The translations under genes were made by a program, and so were the position numbers. The notes under the pieces were generated by a model that saw only the letters and a program-made list of their open reading frames with translations, made no database searches and had not been told where the DNA came from. A stretch of 64,000 bases of DNA from assembly GCF_011761235.1 (NCBI RefSeq), contig NZ_JAAOYW010000001.1, positions 558,781-622,780 on the forward strand, in the 5' to 3' direction. The stretch's first letter is position 1. Each line of letters starts with the position of its first letter. This stretch comes from Frigoribacterium faeni (GTDB lineage Bacteria; Actinomycetota; Actinomycetes; Actinomycetales; Microbacteriaceae). Of the stretch, positions 18,510-40,552 are shown one piece after another.

Positions 18510-18887
18510 TGGTGGAGATGGGGGGAATTGAACCCCCGTCCATCGCTGAGATTGCACGCATTCTACGGGCGTAGCCAGATGAGACGTTCTGCTCGGCTCC
18601 GACCTTCGCTACTGGCTTCTAGGTCGACGAGCCCAGCCCGAGTTCGAGTCCCGCGTGACCCTCAGGCGTAGTCACGCAGCGAGCCCTCTAGATGACGTCA
18701 GGCTCTGGTTAGAAGGCGGTCACCAGACTGACGGACTCCATGTGGCTCTACTGCTTACGCAGCGAGAGCGAAGTCAGTGCGCTTGTTATTGGCACTTATT
18801 GTTTTCCAGGGATCGTTCACGAGATGACCCTGGATCCTCGGCCCGCTTCTCGTTCGCACACAGGCGATGTCGAAACCGATCATCCCC
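18510..18887 (-). ncRNA. ssrA: Transfer-messenger RNA (tmRNA)
   Basis: 378 bases on the complement. The 5' GGGGATG pairs with CATCTCC near the 3' end to form the acceptor stem; the T-arm GGGGGTTCAATTCCCCC and an encoded terminal CCA (CTCCACCA) complete the tRNA-like domain. The tag frame at 18793-18755 reads GCC AAT AAC ... TAA and encodes ANNKRTDFALAA, with the LAA end recognised by ClpXP and related proteases. It rescues stalled ribosomes together with SmpB, encoded immediately upstream. The 5' end is set by the acceptor pairing; a TAGACT hexamer at 18932-18937 may be the promoter of a longer precursor that is trimmed by RNase P. Confidence 0.97.
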
Positions 18888-33289: not shown

Positions 33290-34963
33290 ATGAAGAACAC
33301 GAAGAAGGCCGGCGTCGTCGCGGGCCTCGCCGCACTCGCTCTCGTCGTCACGGCGTGCAGCAGCGGCGGCGGCCAGGGCGGCGACAGCGCACCCAAGGAC
33401 GGCGTGCTGTCCCCCACCGGCGACATCAACGCCACGGCGGCCGCCGACGTGCAGCAGGGCGGCACGCTCACGCTGCCGCTCACCCAGCTGCCCTCGCAGT
33501 GGAACTACGGCCAGCTCGACGGCGCGCTCGTCGACGCGAACCTCGTCGAGACGGCGATCCTGCCGCAGCCGTTCCGCATCGACGAGGACGGCGTGCCGCA
33601 GCTCGACGAGGACTTCGTCACGAGCGCCGAGGCGACGAGCGACGACCCCCTGGTCGTCACCTACGACATCAACCCCGACGCCACCTGGAACGACGGCACG
33701 CCGATCACCGTCGCCGACTTCCAGGCGTGGTGGACGGCCCTCAAGGGCACGAACGCCGAGTACCTCGTCGGCAGCACGCTCGGCCCCGACCGCATGGCCA
33801 GCGTCGAGCCCGGCACGAGCGACAAGCAGGTCGTCGTGACGTACTCCGAGCCCTTCTCCGACTGGAAGTCGATGTTCGCGCCGCTCTACCCGGCGAAGAT
33901 CTACAACGACCCGACGGCCTTCAACACCGCCTACGTCGACGCGGTGCCGATCTCGGCCGGCCCGTACAAGATCGACGCCATCGACCAGACGGCCCAGACC
34001 GTCACGATGGTGCCCGACGAGAACTGGTGGGGCGACGCCCCCAAGCTCGACAAGGTGATCTTCCGAGCCCTCGACGGCGACGCCGACATCGACGCCTACC
34101 TGAACGGCGAGATCGACCAGGTCTACGCGAACTCGTCCGACCGCTACGACCGCGTCAAGAACGCGGACGGCAGCGAGCTGCGCGCCGCGCCCTCGGCCCG
34201 CTACACGCACGTCGACTTCAGCACCAAGGGCCTGTTGGCCGACGAGTCGGTGCGCCAGGCGATCCAGCACGCGGTCGACCGGGACGCCCTCGGCAAGGTC
34301 ATCACAGGCACCCTGCCCTACGAGGTCACGACCCTGAACAACCACCTGTACCTCAGCACCGACGGCGCGTACAAGGACAACGCGGGCGAGTACGGGAACT
34401 ACGACGTCGACGAGGCAGGCAAGATCCTCGACGACGCGGGCTGGGAGATGGACGGCGACGTCCGCGCGAAGGACGGCGAGCAGCTCGCCATCTCGGTCAC
34501 CATCCCGTCGTCGGCGCCCGTGTCGCAGCAGCTGGCCGAGGTCATGCAGAGCCAGCTGGCCGCGGTCGGCATCAAGCTCGACATCAACGCGGTCGGCACC
34601 GACGCCTTCTTCGAGGACAACGTCACGCCCGGCAACTACGACATGACGATCTTCGTCTGGGCCGGCACCGGCTACCAGGCGTCCGCCGTCAGCATCTACA
34701 ACCAGGACGAGCAGGGCCAGAACTACGGCCGCGTCTCGAACGACGAGATCAGCTCGCTGCTCGACGAGGCCGTGGCCGAGGGCGACCCCGACACCGCCGC
34801 CGACCTGTACAACCAGGCCGACGAGGCCATCTGGCAGATCGGGCACTCCATGCCGATCATCCAGCAGCCCCTCGTCTCGGCGCAGAGCCCGGAGCTGGCG
34901 AACTACGGCGCCCGCGCCGGGGCCACCGACCTCGACTGGACGATCGTCGGCTTCACGAAGTAG
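33290..34963 (+). CDS. ABC transporter substrate-binding lipoprotein, family 5 (peptide/oligopeptide)
   Basis: 557 residues. Signal peptide of lipoprotein type: MKNTKKAG, a hydrophobic core, then lipobox VTAC with Cys23 as the lipidated residue; a Gly/Ser linker follows. The mature protein has the SBP_bac_5 fold: DPLVVTYDINPDATWNDGTPITVADFQAWW near residue 125, YLNGEIDQVY near 273 and VRQAIQHAVDRDALGKVI near 320. It captures the substrate outside the membrane for the divergent OppBC-ATPase system. The ligand cannot be read from sequence; peptides are most likely. It has its own promoter, so receptor levels may exceed transporter levels. Confidence 0.9.
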   Translation: MKNTKKAGVVAGLAALALVVTACSSGGGQGGDSAPKDGVLSPTGDINATAAADVQQGGTLTLPLTQLPSQWNYGQLDGALVDANLVETAILPQPFRIDEDGVPQLDEDFVTSAEATSDDPLVVTYDINPDATWNDGTPITVADFQAWWTALKGTNAEYLVGSTLGPDRMASVEPGTSDKQVVVTYSEPFSDWKSMFAPLYPAKIYNDPTAFNTAYVDAVPISAGPYKIDAIDQTAQTVTMVPDENWWGDAPKLDKVIFRALDGDADIDAYLNGEIDQVYANSSDRYDRVKNADGSELRAAPSARYTHVDFSTKGLLADESVRQAIQHAVDRDALGKVITGTLPYEVTTLNNHLYLSTDGAYKDNAGEYGNYDVDEAGKILDDAGWEMDGDVRAKDGEQLAISVTIPSSAPVSQQLAEVMQSQLAAVGIKLDINAVGTDAFFEDNVTPGNYDMTIFVWAGTGYQASAVSIYNQDEQGQNYGRVSNDEISSLLDEAVAEGDPDTAADLYNQADEAIWQIGHSMPIIQQPLVSAQSPELANYGARAGATDLDWTIVGFTK

Positions 34964-34990
34964 CACCGTCGCCCCTCGGGGCACGACCAC

Positions 34991-35034
34991 GAGCCCCGCT
35001 CGGACCGCGCCACGGCGCGGGACGGGCGGGGCTC
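34991..35034. terminator. Nested hairpin terminator after the binding-protein gene
   Basis: Outer arms GAGCCCCGC (34991-34999) and GCGGGGCTC (35026-35034); inner arms CCGCGCC and GGCGCGG at 35005-35011 and 35014-35020. It can work in both directions and would also end minus-strand transcription from the 35334 promoter. Confidence 0.7.
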
Positions 35035-35327
35035 CGTGCTGTCGGGCCGACGCTCTTGCCTGACCGACGTCCGCCGGGAGCCGACGATCTCCACCGGCCG
35101 GCGTTCGGCTCGAACCGTCGCGGGCACCATGCCGGGCCACGGTGGCCCCTGCTCGCGACCGGACCCGTTCGGGCCGGGTCCGGGCGCGCTGCAGCAGAGT
35201 CCCGGGGTCGGCCCCGCGGCGATCGACCGCGGGGACGGCAGGACGGTGTCCGTCCGAGGGACGAGCGTGTCGAGGGCGCCGGGCTCTCGGGGCGGATCGC
35301 ACCCCGGGCGGGCAGGCCGCGTCGACG
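35035..35327 (-). ncRNA. Candidate structured small RNA downstream of the duplicated promoter
   Basis: About 290 bases on the complement, between a promoter at 35334-35339 and a terminator at 34991-35034, with no convincing gene. Strong hairpins: CCCCGCGG/CCGCGGGG at 35213-35234, CGGACCCG/CGGGTCCG at about 35159-35182, and GGGCCAC/GTGGCCC at 35134-35148. Its first 55 bases resemble the leader of the SipW operon, including GAGCCCGGCGCCC. An open frame of 166 codons crosses it but begins upstream of the promoter and has no ribosome site or recognisable protein, so I favour RNA. Transcription is not proven. Confidence 0.4.
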
Positions 35328-35407
35328 TCTCCGACACTACCGGTCCCCCACCTGGCGGACAAGACATCTCCATGCGAGTGCATGCACCCAGTTGGAGGGG
35401 CATCCGG
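35271..35407 (-). repeat. Duplicated promoter/leader block, copy S2
   Basis: It matches 38320-38452 in the same orientation. Shared parts in minus-strand order: TGCCCC, TGGGTGCATGC (35380-35390), a second GCATG (35371-35375), GGACCGG, a -10 hexamer (TAGTGT, 35334-35339), GTCGAC (35321-35326), GGCCTGCCCGCC and GAGCCCGGCGCCC (35274-35286). A possible -35 is TTGTCC, 17 bases before the -10. Confidence 0.7.
35334..35339 (-). promoter_or_regulatory. -10 hexamer of the S2 promoter
   Basis: TAGTGT on the complement with TTGTCC 17 bases upstream and the conserved TGGGTGCATGC box 40 bases upstream. It drives no recognisable gene. Confidence 0.5.
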
Positions 35408-35447
35408 CCCGACCGGGCTCGGCCTCAGCCCGACGGAGCCGGCGGGC

Positions 35448-36086
35448 TCAGGCCGAGGAGGCGGCCGACCGGCGGCCGTGACCGGTCCCGCCCTCGTGCC
35501 CGCGCCTCCTGCGTCGCAGCCCCGCCGCGAGCGCCCACACCGCGTAGAGGCAGAGGCCGACGCCCGCGGCGCTGGCGACCCAGCCGCGCCCCTCGCCCCC
35601 GACGGCCTGCGCCGCCCAGCCCACCAGCGGCAGGCTGTACCAGACGGCGCCCCGCACCTGGACGGGCATGACCGCCTCGGCGTCCGCGGCGTCGTTGGCG
35701 TCGCCCCGCATGACGAACGCGCGCGTGCCGTCGGACGACGACACGACCTGGACGACCCGGTGGGTGACGACGGCGGCCTCGCCCGACTCGAGCTGGTAGG
35801 TGAGGACGTCGCCCGGCTCGACGCGGTCGGTGTCGACCGGCCGCACGACGAGCAGGGTCCCCGGCGGGAAGGTGGGCTCCATCGAGCTCGTCAGCACCGT
35901 GAGCGGCGTCGAGCCCGTCGCCTTGGGCACGACGACGAGCAGGGCCGCGAGGCCCAGGACGAGTCCGAGCACGCCCACGCTCAGGCCGAGCGACACGGCC
36001 CGCAGGAGTCCCCCGCGGCCGGACGCGCGCGCCTCGCGACGCGAGGGCTCCCGGCCGACCCTCGCCGCGCCTCCCCCGTCGCTCAC
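35448..36086 (-). CDS. sipW: SipW-type signal peptidase I (Ser/His)
   Basis: 212 residues from GTG 36086, which overlaps the upstream stop as GTGA (another in-frame GTG is six bases earlier). N-terminal helix at about 29-53, then TSSMEPTFPPGTLL with nucleophile Ser68, VVTHRV with His109 where bacterial type I peptidases have Lys, and MRGDANDAAD with the conserved Asp129. A Ser-His pair is the ER/archaeal form, used in bacteria by SipW. The C-terminal helix is at about 165-195, followed by a basic tail. It would cleave the alternate-type signal peptides of the three proteins encoded upstream in the same operon. Confidence 0.9.
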   Translation of the reverse strand: MSDGGGAARVGREPSRREARASGRGGLLRAVSLGLSVGVLGLVLGLAALLVVVPKATGSTPLTVLTSSMEPTFPPGTLLVVRPVDTDRVEPGDVLTYQLESGEAAVVTHRVVQVVSSSDGTRAFVMRGDANDAADAEAVMPVQVRGAVWYSLPLVGWAAQAVGGEGRGWVASAAGVGLCLYAVWALAAGLRRRRRGHEGGTGHGRRSAASSA

Positions 36087-37021
36087 GCGCACGACACCTG
36101 ACGCTGGCCGGACGCGCTCGGCCCGACGACGACGGCGCCCGTCCAGGCGACGGGACCCGGCTCGGCGCCGGCCACCGACCGGACGTCGACGGTCACCCGG
36201 CCGTCGGGCACGAGCGACGCGGGCACCATGTCGCGCGTCACGTCGTGGGACTTCGTGGGCGCCTGGCCCGACACGGTGTTGCCGACGCGTCGCCCGCCGA
36301 CGAAGATCCCCCACTGGTCGGAGTCGACCGGGGCGTCCCACGAGACCGTGGCGTACGACGTGCCGTCGCCCGTGTCGACGGTCCGGCAGCTGAGCGCCCG
36401 GGCCGTGGGCGTCGTGGGGGCGGCCGTCGTGTACCGGGTGTTCTGGTAGAAGTCCTCGATGCTGGCCCAGTCGGTCCAGCCGTGCGAGCCTCCCGAGACC
36501 TCGAAGACCGGGTTGACGGTGACCCCGTCGGGCGCCGAGGAGGCGGCGGTCGACCGCCAGCACCAGGTCACCCGGGACGAGGCGGGCGCGCTGCCGGCCG
36601 CGACGGGGGGCGAGGCCCAGGTGCCGCCGGGCGAGCCCGCGGGCACGTCGGAGTCGCAGGAGGCGGTCGTCGTCGGCCACACGCGGACGTCGACCCGCTC
36701 GGAGAGCTCGCGCGAGACGGCGCCGGTCGTGCCGGCGGCGGCGGTGAGCCGGTAGTCGACGGGCACGGTGCTGCCGTTGAAGACGGTGATCGCGGTCGTG
36801 AACGACTGCCCGGGCGCCGTGTAGTCCACGGCGCGCGGGCTCGAGGACTCGAGCTCGAGGTCCACCTTGGCGAGGATCGTCCGGGCCGGCGCCTCCGCGG
36901 AGGCCGTCCAGAGCGCCCAGCCCGTGCCGGTGCCCGTGCCCACGAGGGCGACGACCAGGGCCACGAGCGCGGCCGTCCTGCCGAGCCCGCGAGCGCGCCG
37001 CGACGAGGCCGCCCCGGTCAC
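36083..37021 (-). CDS. SipW-dependent exported protein, large (312 aa)
   Basis: GTG 37021 overlaps the preceding stop as GTGA. Signal region: basic MTGAASSRRARGLGR, a hydrophobic core to about residue 33, then GTGWALWTASAEAPA, matching the G-x-x-(A/F)-x-W-x-(S/A)-S-A pattern of its two siblings. The mature part is a beta-rich, Ser/Thr/Ala-rich secreted protein with the segment TAPGQSFTTAITVFNGSTVPVDYRL near 67 and a C-terminal fibronectin-III-like region (ATVSWDAPVDSDQWGIFVGGRRVG near 225). Four Cys in the mature region could form disulfides. Probably a cell-surface or fibre-associated protein; no enzymatic motif. It is coupled to sipW. Confidence 0.75.
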   Translation of the reverse strand: MTGAASSRRARGLGRTAALVALVVALVGTGTGTGWALWTASAEAPARTILAKVDLELESSSPRAVDYTAPGQSFTTAITVFNGSTVPVDYRLTAAAGTTGAVSRELSERVDVRVWPTTTASCDSDVPAGSPGGTWASPPVAAGSAPASSRVTWCWRSTAASSAPDGVTVNPVFEVSGGSHGWTDWASIEDFYQNTRYTTAAPTTPTARALSCRTVDTGDGTSYATVSWDAPVDSDQWGIFVGGRRVGNTVSGQAPTKSHDVTRDMVPASLVPDGRVTVDVRSVAGAEPGPVAWTGAVVVGPSASGQRQVSCA

Positions 37022-37620
37022 GACGCCACCTGCGTGCCCTCGAGGCGCACGGACCAGTCGCCGACCCCGCCCTGGACCGTCTGGGGCGCGTCGGCGTCGA
37101 GCAGCACCTCGACGCACACCGTCGCCGAGGAGCCCGGCTCGAGCCGCGGCAGCACGTCGGCCCGGAACCCGACGAGGCGGGAGGGCGCGACGTCGGCGAG
37201 GGCGGACGCGCACGACCCGCCGGCAGGGAGGGGCGCGACCCTGAGCCGCAGCTCGTCGAGCGAGGCCCCGGCCGTCGGCCCGTCGAAGGCGGCGCTGACG
37301 TCGTCCGTCGTCGCCGCGACCGAGAGCGGGACGACGCCGGTGTTCCTCAGGACGAACGACCCGGCGGCGCCCGTGCCCGGGAGCAGGCCCCGGGAGCTGA
37401 GCCCCGTCGCCTGCGAGACGGCGAGCGCCGCCGTGCCGGTGGTCACGACGCCGCCGACGCGAGCCGGCGCCGACGAGCTCCAGAGGGCGTACGACCCGCC
37501 GGTGGCGACCAGGCCGAGGGCGACGGCGCCGACCACGACGGCCGTGGCCGCCCAGACACGGCGGAGGGCGCCGCGCCGCAGGGCGGCGTGGCGTGCTCCG
37601 GGGTGCGGGCGGCGCGACAC
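37018..37620 (-). CDS. SipW-dependent exported protein, 200 aa
   Basis: Start GTG 37620, 13 bases after the stop of the first exported protein, with no clear ribosome site, so reinitiation is likely. Basic N-terminus of about 22 residues (SRRPHPGARHAALRRGALRR), core AATAVVVGAVALGLVATGG and the signal end GSYALWSSSAPARVG. The mature domain is beta-rich: GTGAAGSFVLRNTGVVPLSVAATTDD near 83 resembles the TasA/camelysin-like 'average repartition' of short strands, and there are two Cys (near 138 and 172). No catalytic motif. It is probably a structural surface protein processed by the SipW encoded in the operon. Confidence 0.75.
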   Translation of the reverse strand: MSRRPHPGARHAALRRGALRRVWAATAVVVGAVALGLVATGGSYALWSSSAPARVGGVVTTGTAALAVSQATGLSSRGLLPGTGAAGSFVLRNTGVVPLSVAATTDDVSAAFDGPTAGASLDELRLRVAPLPAGGSCASALADVAPSRLVGFRADVLPRLEPGSSATVCVEVLLDADAPQTVQGGVGDWSVRLEGTQVAS

Positions 37621-37633
37621 GGGTGGGGCCCCG

Positions 37634-38197
37634 CTACTCGACCTGGGTCAGGGTGAAGACGACCTTGGTCAGGTCGAGCGTCTTGTCCTGCGTGCTGTTG
37701 TCCGCGTCGGTCGGCACCGACACCCCGAGCCGGGCGACGGCCGTCGTGCTCGAGGTGGACGGCGTCACCGAGAAGGCGTTCGCGCGGCCCGAGACGGGGG
37801 CGAAGCCGGCGGGCGACGCCGTGTCGGTCCGGCTGGTCTGGACCGTGAGGACCGGGACCACGCTGGTCAGCGTGCTCGTGGTCGCGCCGAGGTCGTACGA
37901 GAAGACGGCCTTGAGGCCGGTGCCCGAGGCGGTGACCGTGACGGGGACGGTGTACTCGAGCTGGGTTCCGGGGATCATCCGGTACGACGACAGCTCGGCG
38001 TCGCTGAGCAGGGAGCCGGTCCGCAGGTCCTTCCACTGCCCGGTGCCGGGCGTGGTCGCGAGGCTGAGCTGTCCGGTGCGCAGCACGCCCGCCGAGGCGG
38101 AGGCCGAGCTGTTCCAGACGGCGAAGGTGCCGGCGCCCCCCAGCAGGAGGGCGATGCCGGCGGCGCCGGCGACGGCGCTCTTGACGAAGGCGTTCAT
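37634..38197 (-). CDS. SipW-dependent exported protein (alternate-type signal peptide, RER_14450-like), 187 aa
   Basis: First gene of the operon. ATG 38197 has GGACAG upstream. The signal MNAFVKSAVAGAAGIALLL then GGAGTFAVWNSSASASAG has the form known from alternate signal-mediated exported proteins of actinobacteria. The mature protein is about 150 residues, Thr/Ser-rich, without Cys, with YTVPVTVTASGTGLKAVFSYDL near 85 in the predicted beta-sandwich. By analogy with Bacillus TasA (also SipW-processed) it may form surface fibres or matrix, but sequence similarity to TasA itself is not evident to me. It is preceded by a 180-base leader. Confidence 0.78.
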   Translation of the reverse strand: MNAFVKSAVAGAAGIALLLGGAGTFAVWNSSASASAGVLRTGQLSLATTPGTGQWKDLRTGSLLSDAELSSYRMIPGTQLEYTVPVTVTASGTGLKAVFSYDLGATTSTLTSVVPVLTVQTSRTDTASPAGFAPVSGRANAFSVTPSTSSTTAVARLGVSVPTDADNSTQDKTLDLTKVVFTLTQVE

Positions 38198-38319
38198 GAT
38201 CTGTCCTGTCCGCGCTCGGGCGCGTCGAACGTCGCCCGGGTCGCCGTGGGATGCCGCCGGCTCGGGTGACGCGTGTCGGGTGCAGTGCCGCGTCGGGGAG
38301 TTCGGGCCCGCGACGCCGC

Positions 38320-38452
38320 CGACGGGCGCCGGGCTCGCGGGGTTCGGGTCCCGCGGCGGGCTGGCCTGTCGACTCGTGCGACGGTACCCGGTCCTCCGAA
38401 ATGCCGACAGGGTTCTCATGCATCCGCATGCACCCAATCCGGGGGGCACCGG
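38320..38452 (-). repeat. Duplicated promoter/leader block, copy S1 (SipW operon)
   Basis: It matches 35271-35407. Contains TGGGTGCATGC (complement of 38426-38436), a second GCATG (38418-38422), the -10 hexamer at 38381-38386, GTCGAC at 38368-38373 and GAGCCCGGCGCCC at 38324-38336. The rest of the gene-free stretch 38198-38319 is the operon leader, GC-rich and without a recognised motif. Confidence 0.7.
38381..38386 (-). promoter_or_regulatory. -10 hexamer of the SipW operon promoter
   Basis: TACCGT on the complement, with CTGTCG 18 bases upstream as a weak -35 and the TGGGTGCATGC box 39 bases upstream. The predicted leader before ATG 38197 is about 180 bases. Confidence 0.5.
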
Positions 38453-38538
38453 CACGGCCGACCGCTCGAGGAGCCTCCCGAGGCGGCCACCACGGGCTCC
38501 GAGCCCGAGGAGGCGGTACGCCGGGCCCGGAGACCGGG

Positions 38539-38544
38539 TAGCGT
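38539..38544 (+). promoter_or_regulatory. -10 hexamer for leaderless glgE
   Basis: TAGCGT, seven bases before GTG 38552. Confidence 0.5.
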
Positions 38545-38551
38545 CGCCACC

Positions 38552-40552
38552 GTGGCGACAGCATACGAACCCAGAGTCGGGCGGATCCCCGTCACGGCGC
38601 TCTCCCCGACCACCCCCGACCGGGACTTCCCGACGAAGGCCTTCGCCGGAGAGGTCGTGCCGTTCGGCGCGACCGTCTTCCGCGAGGGGCACGACGTCGT
38701 CGGCGCGGACCTGGTCCTGACCGACCCCTCCGGCACCGAGTCGCGACACCCGCTCGCGGCCGGCCTCCCCGGCACCGACCGCTGGACGACGGAGGTGCAG
38801 CTCGAGACGGAGGGCGACTGGACCTGGCAGGTCGAGGCGTACACCGACGACTGGGCGACCTGGCTGCACACCGCCGAGATCAAGGTGCCCGCCGAGCAGG
38901 ACGTCGAGGTGACGTTCGCCCTCGGCAGCCGCCTCCTCACGGCCGCCGCCCCCGGCTACCCGGACACGACGCTGGTGCGCGACGCCGCCAAGGCGCTGTC
39001 GAACGAGGCCCTCTCGCCCGGCTCCCGCCTGCGCGTGGCCACCGACCCGCGCCTGGCCGCCGTCTTCGCGGCGAAGCCGATGGCCAGCCTCGTCACGCGG
39101 AGCGCCCCGGAGGAGCTGCGCGTCGAGCGCACGCGCGCCGCCGTCGGCAGCTGGTACGAGTTCTTCCCCCGCAGCGAGGGCGCGAAGAAGCAGCCCGACG
39201 GCACGTGGAAGAGCGGCACGTTCCGCACCGCCGCCCGGCGACTGCCCGCCATCGCACGGATGGGCTTCGACGTGGTCTACATCCCGCCGGTGCACCCCAT
39301 CGGCACGACGTTCCGCAAGGGCCCCAACAACACGCTCACCGCGGGCCCCGACGACCCGGGGTCGCCCTACGCGATCGGCTCGCCGGACGGCGGCCACGAC
39401 GCGGTGCACCCCGACCTCGGCACGCTCGCGGACTTCCGCTGGTTCGTCGACACGGCCAAGAACACCGGCCTCGAGCTGGCGCTCGACCTGGCGCTGCAGT
39501 GCTCGCCCGACCACCCCTGGGTCACCGAGCACCCCGAGTGGTTCACGACGCTCCCGGACGGCACCATCGCCTACGCCGAGAACCCGCCGAAGAAGTACCA
39601 GGACATCTACCCCCTGAACTTCGACGACGACTACGAGGGCGTCAGCCGCGAGGTGCTGCGCATCGTGCGGCACTGGATCGAGCTCGGCGTCACGATCTTC
39701 AGGGTCGACAACCCGCACACGAAGCCGGTGCGCTTCTGGGAGTGGCTGCTGCACGAGGTGCGCGAGACGAACCCCGAGGTGGTGTTCCTCTCGGAGGCCT
39801 TCACGAAGCCCGCCATGATGCAGGCGCTGGCCCGCGTCGGGTTCCACCAGTCGTACACGTACTTCACCTGGCGCAACGAGAAGTGGGAGCTCGAGGAGTA
39901 CCTGCACGAGCTCTCGAAGGAGACGAGCGCCTGGCTGCGCCCGAACCTCTTCGTGAACACGCACGACATCCTCACGCCGTACCTGCAGTACGGCGGCCGA
40001 CCCGCCTACAAGGTGCGCGCCGCGATCGCCGCCACGGCGTCGCCGACCTGGGGCGTCTACTCGGGCTACGAGCTCTTCGAGGACGTCGCGCGGCCGGGCT
40101 CCGAGGAGAACATCGACAACGAGAAGTACGAGTACAAGCCGCGCGACTGGGCCGGGGCGGAGGCGGAGGGCGCCACCCTCGCGCCGTACCTGACCCAGCT
40201 CAACCGCATCCGTGCCTCGCACCCGGCGCTCCGCCAGCTGCGCAACCTCGACCTGCACTCGAGCGACGACGACGCCGTCCTCGTCTACTCGAAGTACCTC
40301 TCGCGGGCGCACACCCGCAGCGGCCGGGCCGACGCGATCATCGTCGTGGCCAACGTCGACCCGCACTCGGCCCGCGAGACCACCGTCCACCTCGACGTCA
40401 CGAAGTTCGGCCTCGCGCCGGGCGGCACGTACACGGTGCGCGACCTCGTCACGGGCCAGTCGTGGACCTGGGGCGACGACAACTACGTCCGCCTCGACGC
40501 CTTCGTCGAGCCCGTCCACGTGCTGTCCGTCGACCTCACCCGAGCGCCGTAG
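38552..40552 (+). CDS. glgE: Alpha-1,4-glucan:maltose-1-phosphate maltosyltransferase
   Basis: 666 residues, full length. A GH13_3 enzyme that adds maltosyl units from maltose-1-phosphate to alpha-glucan. Order: N-terminal DUF3416 domain (about 10-120), then the barrel with SWYEFFPRSEG near 195, GFDVVYIPPVHPIGTTFRKG near 237, nucleophile Asp in IFRVDNPHTKP near 387, acid Glu in VFLSEAFTKP near 416, FVNTHDILTPYLQYGG near 468, and a beta C-domain. GTG 38552 is supported by the -10 spacing. It is followed 13 bases later by glgB. The partner enzymes TreS and Pep2/Mak, which make maltose-1-phosphate, are not in this window. Confidence 0.95.
   Translation: MATAYEPRVGRIPVTALSPTTPDRDFPTKAFAGEVVPFGATVFREGHDVVGADLVLTDPSGTESRHPLAAGLPGTDRWTTEVQLETEGDWTWQVEAYTDDWATWLHTAEIKVPAEQDVEVTFALGSRLLTAAAPGYPDTTLVRDAAKALSNEALSPGSRLRVATDPRLAAVFAAKPMASLVTRSAPEELRVERTRAAVGSWYEFFPRSEGAKKQPDGTWKSGTFRTAARRLPAIARMGFDVVYIPPVHPIGTTFRKGPNNTLTAGPDDPGSPYAIGSPDGGHDAVHPDLGTLADFRWFVDTAKNTGLELALDLALQCSPDHPWVTEHPEWFTTLPDGTIAYAENPPKKYQDIYPLNFDDDYEGVSREVLRIVRHWIELGVTIFRVDNPHTKPVRFWEWLLHEVRETNPEVVFLSEAFTKPAMMQALARVGFHQSYTYFTWRNEKWELEEYLHELSKETSAWLRPNLFVNTHDILTPYLQYGGRPAYKVRAAIAATASPTWGVYSGYELFEDVARPGSEENIDNEKYEYKPRDWAGAEAEGATLAPYLTQLNRIRASHPALRQLRNLDLHSSDDDAVLVYSKYLSRAHTRSGRADAIIVVANVDPHSARETTVHLDVTKFGLAPGGTYTVRDLVTGQSWTWGDDNYVRLDAFVEPVHVLSVDLTRAP

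Follow-up and report, generated by a model that had tools for sequence, protein, structure and literature searches.

We analysed a 64,000-nucleotide (nt) stretch of the Frigoribacterium faeni genome (contig NZ_JAAOYW010000001.1, positions 558,781 to 622,780; hereafter the window, in whose numbering all positions are given unless a locus is named), which carries an operon for a SipW-like signal peptidase and a protein with a SipW-dependent alternate-type signal peptide (TIGR04089). The promoter and leader of this operon (copy A) recur at its other end (copy B), and comparison across the genus indicates that copy B is very probably a genuine small-RNA gene paralogous to the operon leader, with transcription predicted from its sequence. 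Such an RNA may also act as a decoy, although we put this forward only tentatively; the complete statement, that B is a small-RNA gene which arose by an old duplication of promoter and leader and acts as a decoy on a factor of the operon, has in our judgement an even chance of being right. The evidence consists of a conserved promoter, an RNA domain that is conserved and covaries in both copies, and the persistence of B in genomes without the operon; transcription, the factor and the decoy action are what we infer from it. The elements concerned are as follows.

38316-38436, minus strand: copy A, promoter and leader of the SipW/TIGR04089 operon (from sequence)
35153-35390, minus strand: copy B, a second such promoter with the same P1 hairpin and conserved non-coding sequence (about 175 nt) that closes with the hairpin P4 (from sequence)
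38316-38374, minus strand: P1 of operon leader A, with ACCCGAAC in its apical loop (covariance model, 48.5 bits; fold)
35266-35327, minus strand: P1 of small RNA B (covariance model, 65.9 bits)
35153-35327, minus strand: predicted small RNA B, about 175 nt, with ends predicted from the conservation profile
35158-35185, minus strand: P4, the 3' hairpin of small RNA B, with GCCCGAAC in its loop (pattern search)

Both duplicate promoter/leader blocks, A at 38316-38436 and B at 35266-35390 of the minus strand, lie where an initial annotation of the window had placed them, in the same orientation, and its boxes, -10-like hexamers and leader string (GAGCCCGGCGCCC, common to A and B) were all found again. 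The likeness between the copies proved wider than first noted, since both contain a foldable leader domain of about 60 nt. This domain, P1, is laid out as GTC... GGCC(N)GCCCGCC, a variable hairpin, and GAGCCCGGCGCC ...GAC, with slight departures in single copies. In the window genome of 3.2 Mb, the pattern GCCCGCC-N(8-30)-GAGCCCGGCG occurs at 8 places including A and B, compared with 4 for the control. A covariance model of P1 was built from 17 copies, whose alignment has 22 invariant columns; because this core hardly varies its pairs prove nothing, and it is the outer and inner stems that vary and tend to remain paired. In the alignment fitted to the covariance model (22 copies, 16 distinct), on which the strong covariation counts rest, 85.3% of cells pair, compared with 36-45% in six slid registers, and 8 of 21 pairs are changed on both sides, giving 22 such cells against 5.9 (standard deviation 2.1) in shuffles.

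Conservation of copy B extends beyond P1 and then stops. The mean identity of the other eight B copies to that of the window is 0.36-0.42 before position -75, 0.67-0.72 in the promoter, 0.85-0.90 in P1, 0.47-0.68 in the middle and 0.73-0.84 around P4, falling to 0.28-0.46 just past +175 and ranging from 0.00 to 0.55 further on. P4 itself (GCCCGGACC-loop-GGTCCGG) was found once each in 8 of 16 genomes, always downstream of B, and in none of the seven genomes that have only A; the ninth B copy (G004) carries it in a changed form, in which one pair is altered on both sides, from A-U to U-A. The hairpin is identical in six of the nine copies, one base off in the window copy and further off in G007, and from P1 to the end of P4 the copies measure between 175 and 202 nt. 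No known RNA family matched B at or above the Rfam cut-off. At gathering cut-offs the window yielded the transfer-messenger RNA (tmRNA) alone, at E<=10 the region 34900-38600 gave two sub-threshold matches, neither on the P1 of A nor on B, and at E<=5 the B copies of loci L093-L095 gave none; no known riboswitch was matched in these searches.

Within the genus, the covariance model recovered P1 in 16 of 16 Frigoribacterium genomes, in 22 copies. Both A and B are present in six (G000, the window genome, with G001, G002, G003, G006 and G008), A alone in seven (G005, G009, G010, G011, G013, G014 and G015) and B alone in three (G004, G007 and G012). These last three are the sole genomes of the 16 without a TIGR04089 match, and in all three B adjoins glgE, as expected if the operon had been lost and B kept. 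A glgE tree, with full support at just 6 of its 13 inner branches, gathers the A-only genomes into a single group (support 94/100), B being found in the remaining groups; the simplest history would have both copies ancestral, with one loss of B and two losses of the operon together with A. Beyond the genus, a search with strict filters that scored only 13 candidates per genome gave no P1 match in the remaining 388 of the 398 family genomes that were sampled. The view of the initial annotation that the two blocks descend from an old duplication under selection is one that we share.

The promoter is conserved along with the RNA domain. In the window, its elements and the boxes upstream of it are placed as follows.

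38381-38410, minus strand: promoter A, with -35-like CTGTCG (38405-38410), an 18-nt spacer containing GGAGGAC and -10-like TACCGT (38381-38386)
35334-35362, minus strand: promoter B, with -35-like TTGTCC (35357-35362), a 17-nt spacer containing GGGGGAC and -10-like TAGTGT (35334-35339)
38426-38436, minus strand: upstream box A, TGGGTGCATGC, with a second GCATG at 38417-38421 (from sequence)
35380-35390, minus strand: upstream box B, TGGGTGCATGC, with a second GCATG at 35371-35375 (from sequence)

Three elements recur in all 22 copies (13 of A, 9 of B): CCCC-N(1-5)-(C/T)TGGG, the palindrome-like TGTC-N-G(C/T)-N(4-6)-GG(A/G)GGAC between -35 and -10, and, behind the GG(A/G)GGAC motif, a -10-like TANN(G/A)T. 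A regulator-binding site, as the initial annotation had proposed, is likely, but not in the form given there: the exact pair TGGGTGCATGC-N(4-5)-GCATG is found in just 7 of 13 A and 1 of 9 B copies, so that we rejected these boxes, present in only 8 of 22 copies, as the selected element (TGGGTNCATG is found in 13 of 22). Likewise, the predicted conservation at orthologous loci holds for the locus as a whole and only in part for the boxes named. The gap from TGGGTGCATGC to GCATG is 4 nt in both A and B, and in the window genome TGGGTGCATGC with GCATG 2-8 nt further on occurs at these two places only. The looser GCATGC-N(2-8)-GCATG has 24 places in the genome, compared with 11 for a reversed control, and A and B alone among the seven places with exact TGGGTGCATG are also in that list. 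A third TGGGTGCATGC lies on the minus strand at G000:C1:1375006-1375015 (L004), followed by GGGC and GTATG, with no GCATG.

A second feature common to both RNAs is the loop motif CCCGAA. The A/B strand of the 22 related copies, 4,400 nt in all, contains it 31 times and TTCGGG not once; over both strands of the 64-kb window it is seen 28 times, three of them in A and B. In 21 transcripts totalling 3,797 nt (G015 was omitted, having the same sequence as G013) there are 28 occurrences, where shuffles average 3.2 (maximum 9 in 500), and in six transcripts from four tree groups there are 7, where shuffles average 0.8 (maximum 6). A predicted unpaired probability of at least 0.95 was obtained for 19 of the 28. 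Of the 12 A leaders examined, 10 have the motif in the P1 loop, and among the 9 B copies 7 have it in the P4 loop, the other two having CCCGAG; GCCCGARC is kept in the P4 loop of 9/9 copies, with a predicted unpaired probability of 1.00 in seven and 0.67 in G007 and G004. ANTAR sites are paired hairpins with six-base loops, and we considered this identity without adopting it, as the CCCGAAC loops here are mostly of 7-9 nt.

Elsewhere in the window genome, three ACCCGAAC repeats are packed into 41 nt (L167 1151-1191, G000:C1:105650-105690) in front of a gene for a sugar transferase (PF02397, 217.7 bits), with further CCCGAA behind the three repeats and C/G-rich palindromes before a TTAGAGT -10-like site; this stretch is probably the leader of that gene. 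Clustered CCCGAA was found at six places in the genome: two belong to the L167 leader, L175 is situated just before a lipoprotein-like gene, and the clusters L176-L178 look coding.

Retention of the same core by both an mRNA leader and a lone RNA suggests that the two share a partner, and it is this, together with a precedent in Listeria, that leads us to the decoy model. In the published account (PMC8079631), Rli55, which lies beside the eut operon, is a lone small RNA with an ANTAR element like those of the eut transcripts, titrates EutV and is governed by a B12 riboswitch. B resembles it in sharing a structured element (P1, 22 copies) with the leader of the adjoining operon, binding by P1 being a prediction, and differs in that the shared part is another hairpin than ANTAR, that the promoter is shared too and that no known riboswitch was matched upstream. 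In the mechanism that we propose, the small-RNA gene B would stem from the SipW/TIGR04089 operon, through duplication of its promoter and leader long ago, and A would be that leader. The two would be co-expressed from the same kind of promoter, at which a regulator would read CCCC...CTGGG and the palindrome-like GTC...GGGGGAC between -35 and -10, and both RNAs would begin with P1 and bear hairpin loops of the CCCGAAC type. A trans-acting factor, probably an RNA-binding protein, may recognise P1, the CCCGAAC loops or both in the leader and so set operon expression; small RNA B, carrying the same sites, would compete for this factor and thereby tune the operon; further leaders that bear this loop may perhaps be affected as well.

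Several observations weigh against this picture. The covariation of P1 weakens in an unfitted alignment (79.5% against 77.7% of cells paired, 6 pairs against 6.0 and 14 cells against 8.8 in shuffles), and RNAalifold reported zero covarying pairs on the plain alignment. Isolated P1 folds are mostly of ordinary stability for GC-rich sequence, with z-scores from -0.18 to -3.80 in six of them and one alone beyond -2, and of 21 minimum-energy folds of whole transcripts, 17 show P1 on inspection by eye, the exceptions being G003_B, G001_A, G003_A and G011_A. The covariation of P4 amounts to a single cell, equalled by 56 of 500 shuffles, and the G004 copy of that hairpin has one further pair broken. 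The loop motif is missing from the P1 loop in 7 of 9 B copies and in the leaders of G002 and G003, the latter being devoid of CCCGAA altogether, and 5 of the 28 occurrences fall in the P1 stem. Consensus scans matched neither a sigma-70 promoter nor a T-tract terminator in the region; the promoter hexamers of A and B are too distant from the sigma-70 consensus for such a scan to call. Seven genomes lack B altogether. Finally, the P1 core pattern was found in 62 stretches from 84,980 species genomes, of which 13 are Frigoribacterium and 49 are scattered over several phyla, and the best unrelated stretch reaches 43.3 bits, more than the weakest genus copy (38.1) and nearly as much as the next (43.9), so that the core alone is no proof. 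We take that best unrelated match, which lies within open reading frames on both strands, to be due to chance rather than a true P1; the gene is presumably one for cobalamin adenosyltransferase.

What B does, if it is transcribed, may be explained in other ways. The main rival, which we regard as rather unlikely, makes B a small RNA that acts in trans by base-pairing with target mRNAs, with P1 as an inherited 5' stabiliser and P4 as a terminator with the seed in its loop. Its size, lone promoter and 3' hairpin would suit an ordinary small RNA, as would the invariably kept and predictedly unpaired P4 loop, but P1, the best-conserved part, is mostly paired and recurs in an mRNA leader, where a seed is not needed, and TTCGGG, the complement of the loop, is absent from the 4,400 nt of A/B transcripts (the only sequences searched for it). 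An invariant core with covarying stems, found in a leader and in a lone RNA, would also be in keeping with a ligand-sensing, riboswitch-like P1 used twice, before the operon and before the small RNA. This we hold to be improbable, since P1 is a small single hairpin of about 60 nt, confined to one genus and without an Rfam riboswitch match, and no alternative terminator/antiterminator pair was recognised, no systematic test having been made. A P1 that is a mere 5' stabiliser of both transcripts, with no regulatory partner, is in our estimate just as improbable: P1 does stand at the predicted 5' end of both RNAs, but for stabilisation a stem would suffice, which leaves 22 invariant columns between freely changing stems unexplained.

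Two further readings would dispense with a functional RNA. The initial annotation saw a duplicated promoter with selected boxes, of which the second copy drives no gene; B would then act as DNA or be a relic. Promoter elements are indeed conserved in 22/22 copies, but this accounts for the DNA part alone: P1 surpasses the promoter in conservation and covaries at the RNA level, behind B comes a non-coding RNA domain that is likewise conserved and has a 3' hairpin of its own, and B outlives the operon, being kept in the three genomes without a TIGR04089 match. The statement that this copy drives no gene is thus probably wrong, and we consider the promoter-only reading very improbable. Long open frames do run across B in this GC-rich DNA, but that it encodes a very small protein is scarcely credible, since no ATG, GTG or TTG position is common to the nine B copies, whose length varies as described above.

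The genes around the two copies fit the assignment of A to a SipW-type operon.

38198-38375, minus strand: predicted 5' leader of the TIGR04089 gene, from a predicted start site, with CCCGAA also at 38301-38306 in the loop of a second hairpin
37634-38197, minus strand: first operon gene, SipW-dependent alternate-type signal peptide protein (TIGR04089, 110.3 bits, cut-off 60)
37018-37620, minus strand: second operon gene, 200 amino acids, no Pfam or NCBIfam match, tblastn matches in genus relatives
36083-37021, minus strand: third operon gene, 312 amino acids, no Pfam or NCBIfam match, tblastn matches in genus relatives
35448-36101, minus strand: SipW-like signal peptidase I (TIGR02228, 75.9 bits, cut-off 51.85)
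34991-35034, no strand assigned: inverted repeat I21 between B and the convergent substrate-binding gene, with 21-nt arms that are 86% complementary
18510-18887, minus strand: tmRNA gene (Rfam)

Copy A fronts this operon, as had been proposed, with the TIGR04089 gene first behind its leader, and both the TIGR02228 peptidase and the TIGR04089 protein score above their cut-offs; the model for the SipW of bacilli, NF046067, gave 68.3 bits, under its cut-off of 190. Upstream and divergent from the operon lies glgE, and downstream and convergent is a gene for a family-5 substrate-binding protein (SBP_bac_5), with B between it and the peptidase gene. The inverted repeat, also found in G001 and G008, is possibly a terminator shared by B and the substrate-binding gene. 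Antisense control of the latter was rejected as the conserved role of B, because no match to it was found in the fetched stretches of G002, G003, G006, G004, G007 and G012, all of which keep B. In G003, G005, G009, G011 and G015 there are one or more further TIGR04089 matches at another locus, and the covariance model found no extra P1 in these genomes.

Sequences resembling the A and B promoters were also seen elsewhere. Within 650 nt upstream of TIGR04089-like genes from other genera, the promoter patterns are present at L063 and absent at L065-L067 and L069. At L063 (G021, upstream of 11892, minus strand), two successive promoter-like arrays precede the gene and the leader has several ACC(C/T)GAA repeats, with no P1 match in that genome. 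In F. faeni, a GTCC/GGAC palindrome and CCCCCC...ACTGGG boxes stand upstream of a glycosyltransferase gene (DUF1972, Glycos_transf_1; L102, about 1438-1519; G000:C2:1158583), which perhaps belongs to the same regulon as A and B. Another promoter-like sequence of this kind, TTGTCGGCAAATATGCGGACTCATAGAGT (G000:C1:1343704-1344059; L172 1205-1560; L100), lies between a tRNA and a LytR-CpsA-Psr gene, and in the roughly 330 nt behind it no gene is evident. This stretch has matches in 16 of 16 genus genomes, at 70-87% identity outside its own genome and partly in G003, which makes it a second candidate small RNA.

Among known systems, B, as predicted here, is like Ms1 and 6S RNA in being a structured actinobacterial small RNA with its own promoter. 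Ms1 was traced by synteny with a HAD-IB hydrolase gene and other neighbours (PMC9130861), whereas the identified neighbours of B are lepB, the SBP_bac_5 protein gene or, in three relatives, glgE. The operon itself resembles the SipW/TasA matrix operon in combining a SipW-like peptidase with a protein that it is predicted to mature (TIGR02228, TIGR04089); for operons of this type we found no description in the literature of a leader RNA or of a lone copy of one, and the open-licence literature held nothing on point for small RNAs of Frigoribacterium or Microbacteriaceae, or for SipW together with small RNAs. Structured small RNAs akin to leaders are already known as a kind of element; the duplicated promoter and the alternate retention of the two copies are a new arrangement.

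If the reading of B as a small-RNA gene paralogous to the leader is true, the locus would be a clear case of the birth of such a gene, with the promoter and leader of an operon duplicated at its far end and the duplicate becoming independent thereafter. As all three arrangements (both copies, leader only, small RNA only) occur in one genus, the steps of this process are testable. The locus would also give a starting point for learning how SipW-dependent surface proteins of actinobacteria are controlled post-transcriptionally, and would point to a factor that binds these leaders. More speculatively, and with considerable doubt on our part, the genus may possess a post-transcriptional circuit of its own for surface-matrix genes, in which an RNA-binding regulator reads P1/CCCGAAC in the leaders of SipW operons and perhaps of exopolysaccharide genes, and in which a decoy small RNA, born from the duplicated leader and promoter, sets the level of free regulator and has outlived the operon.

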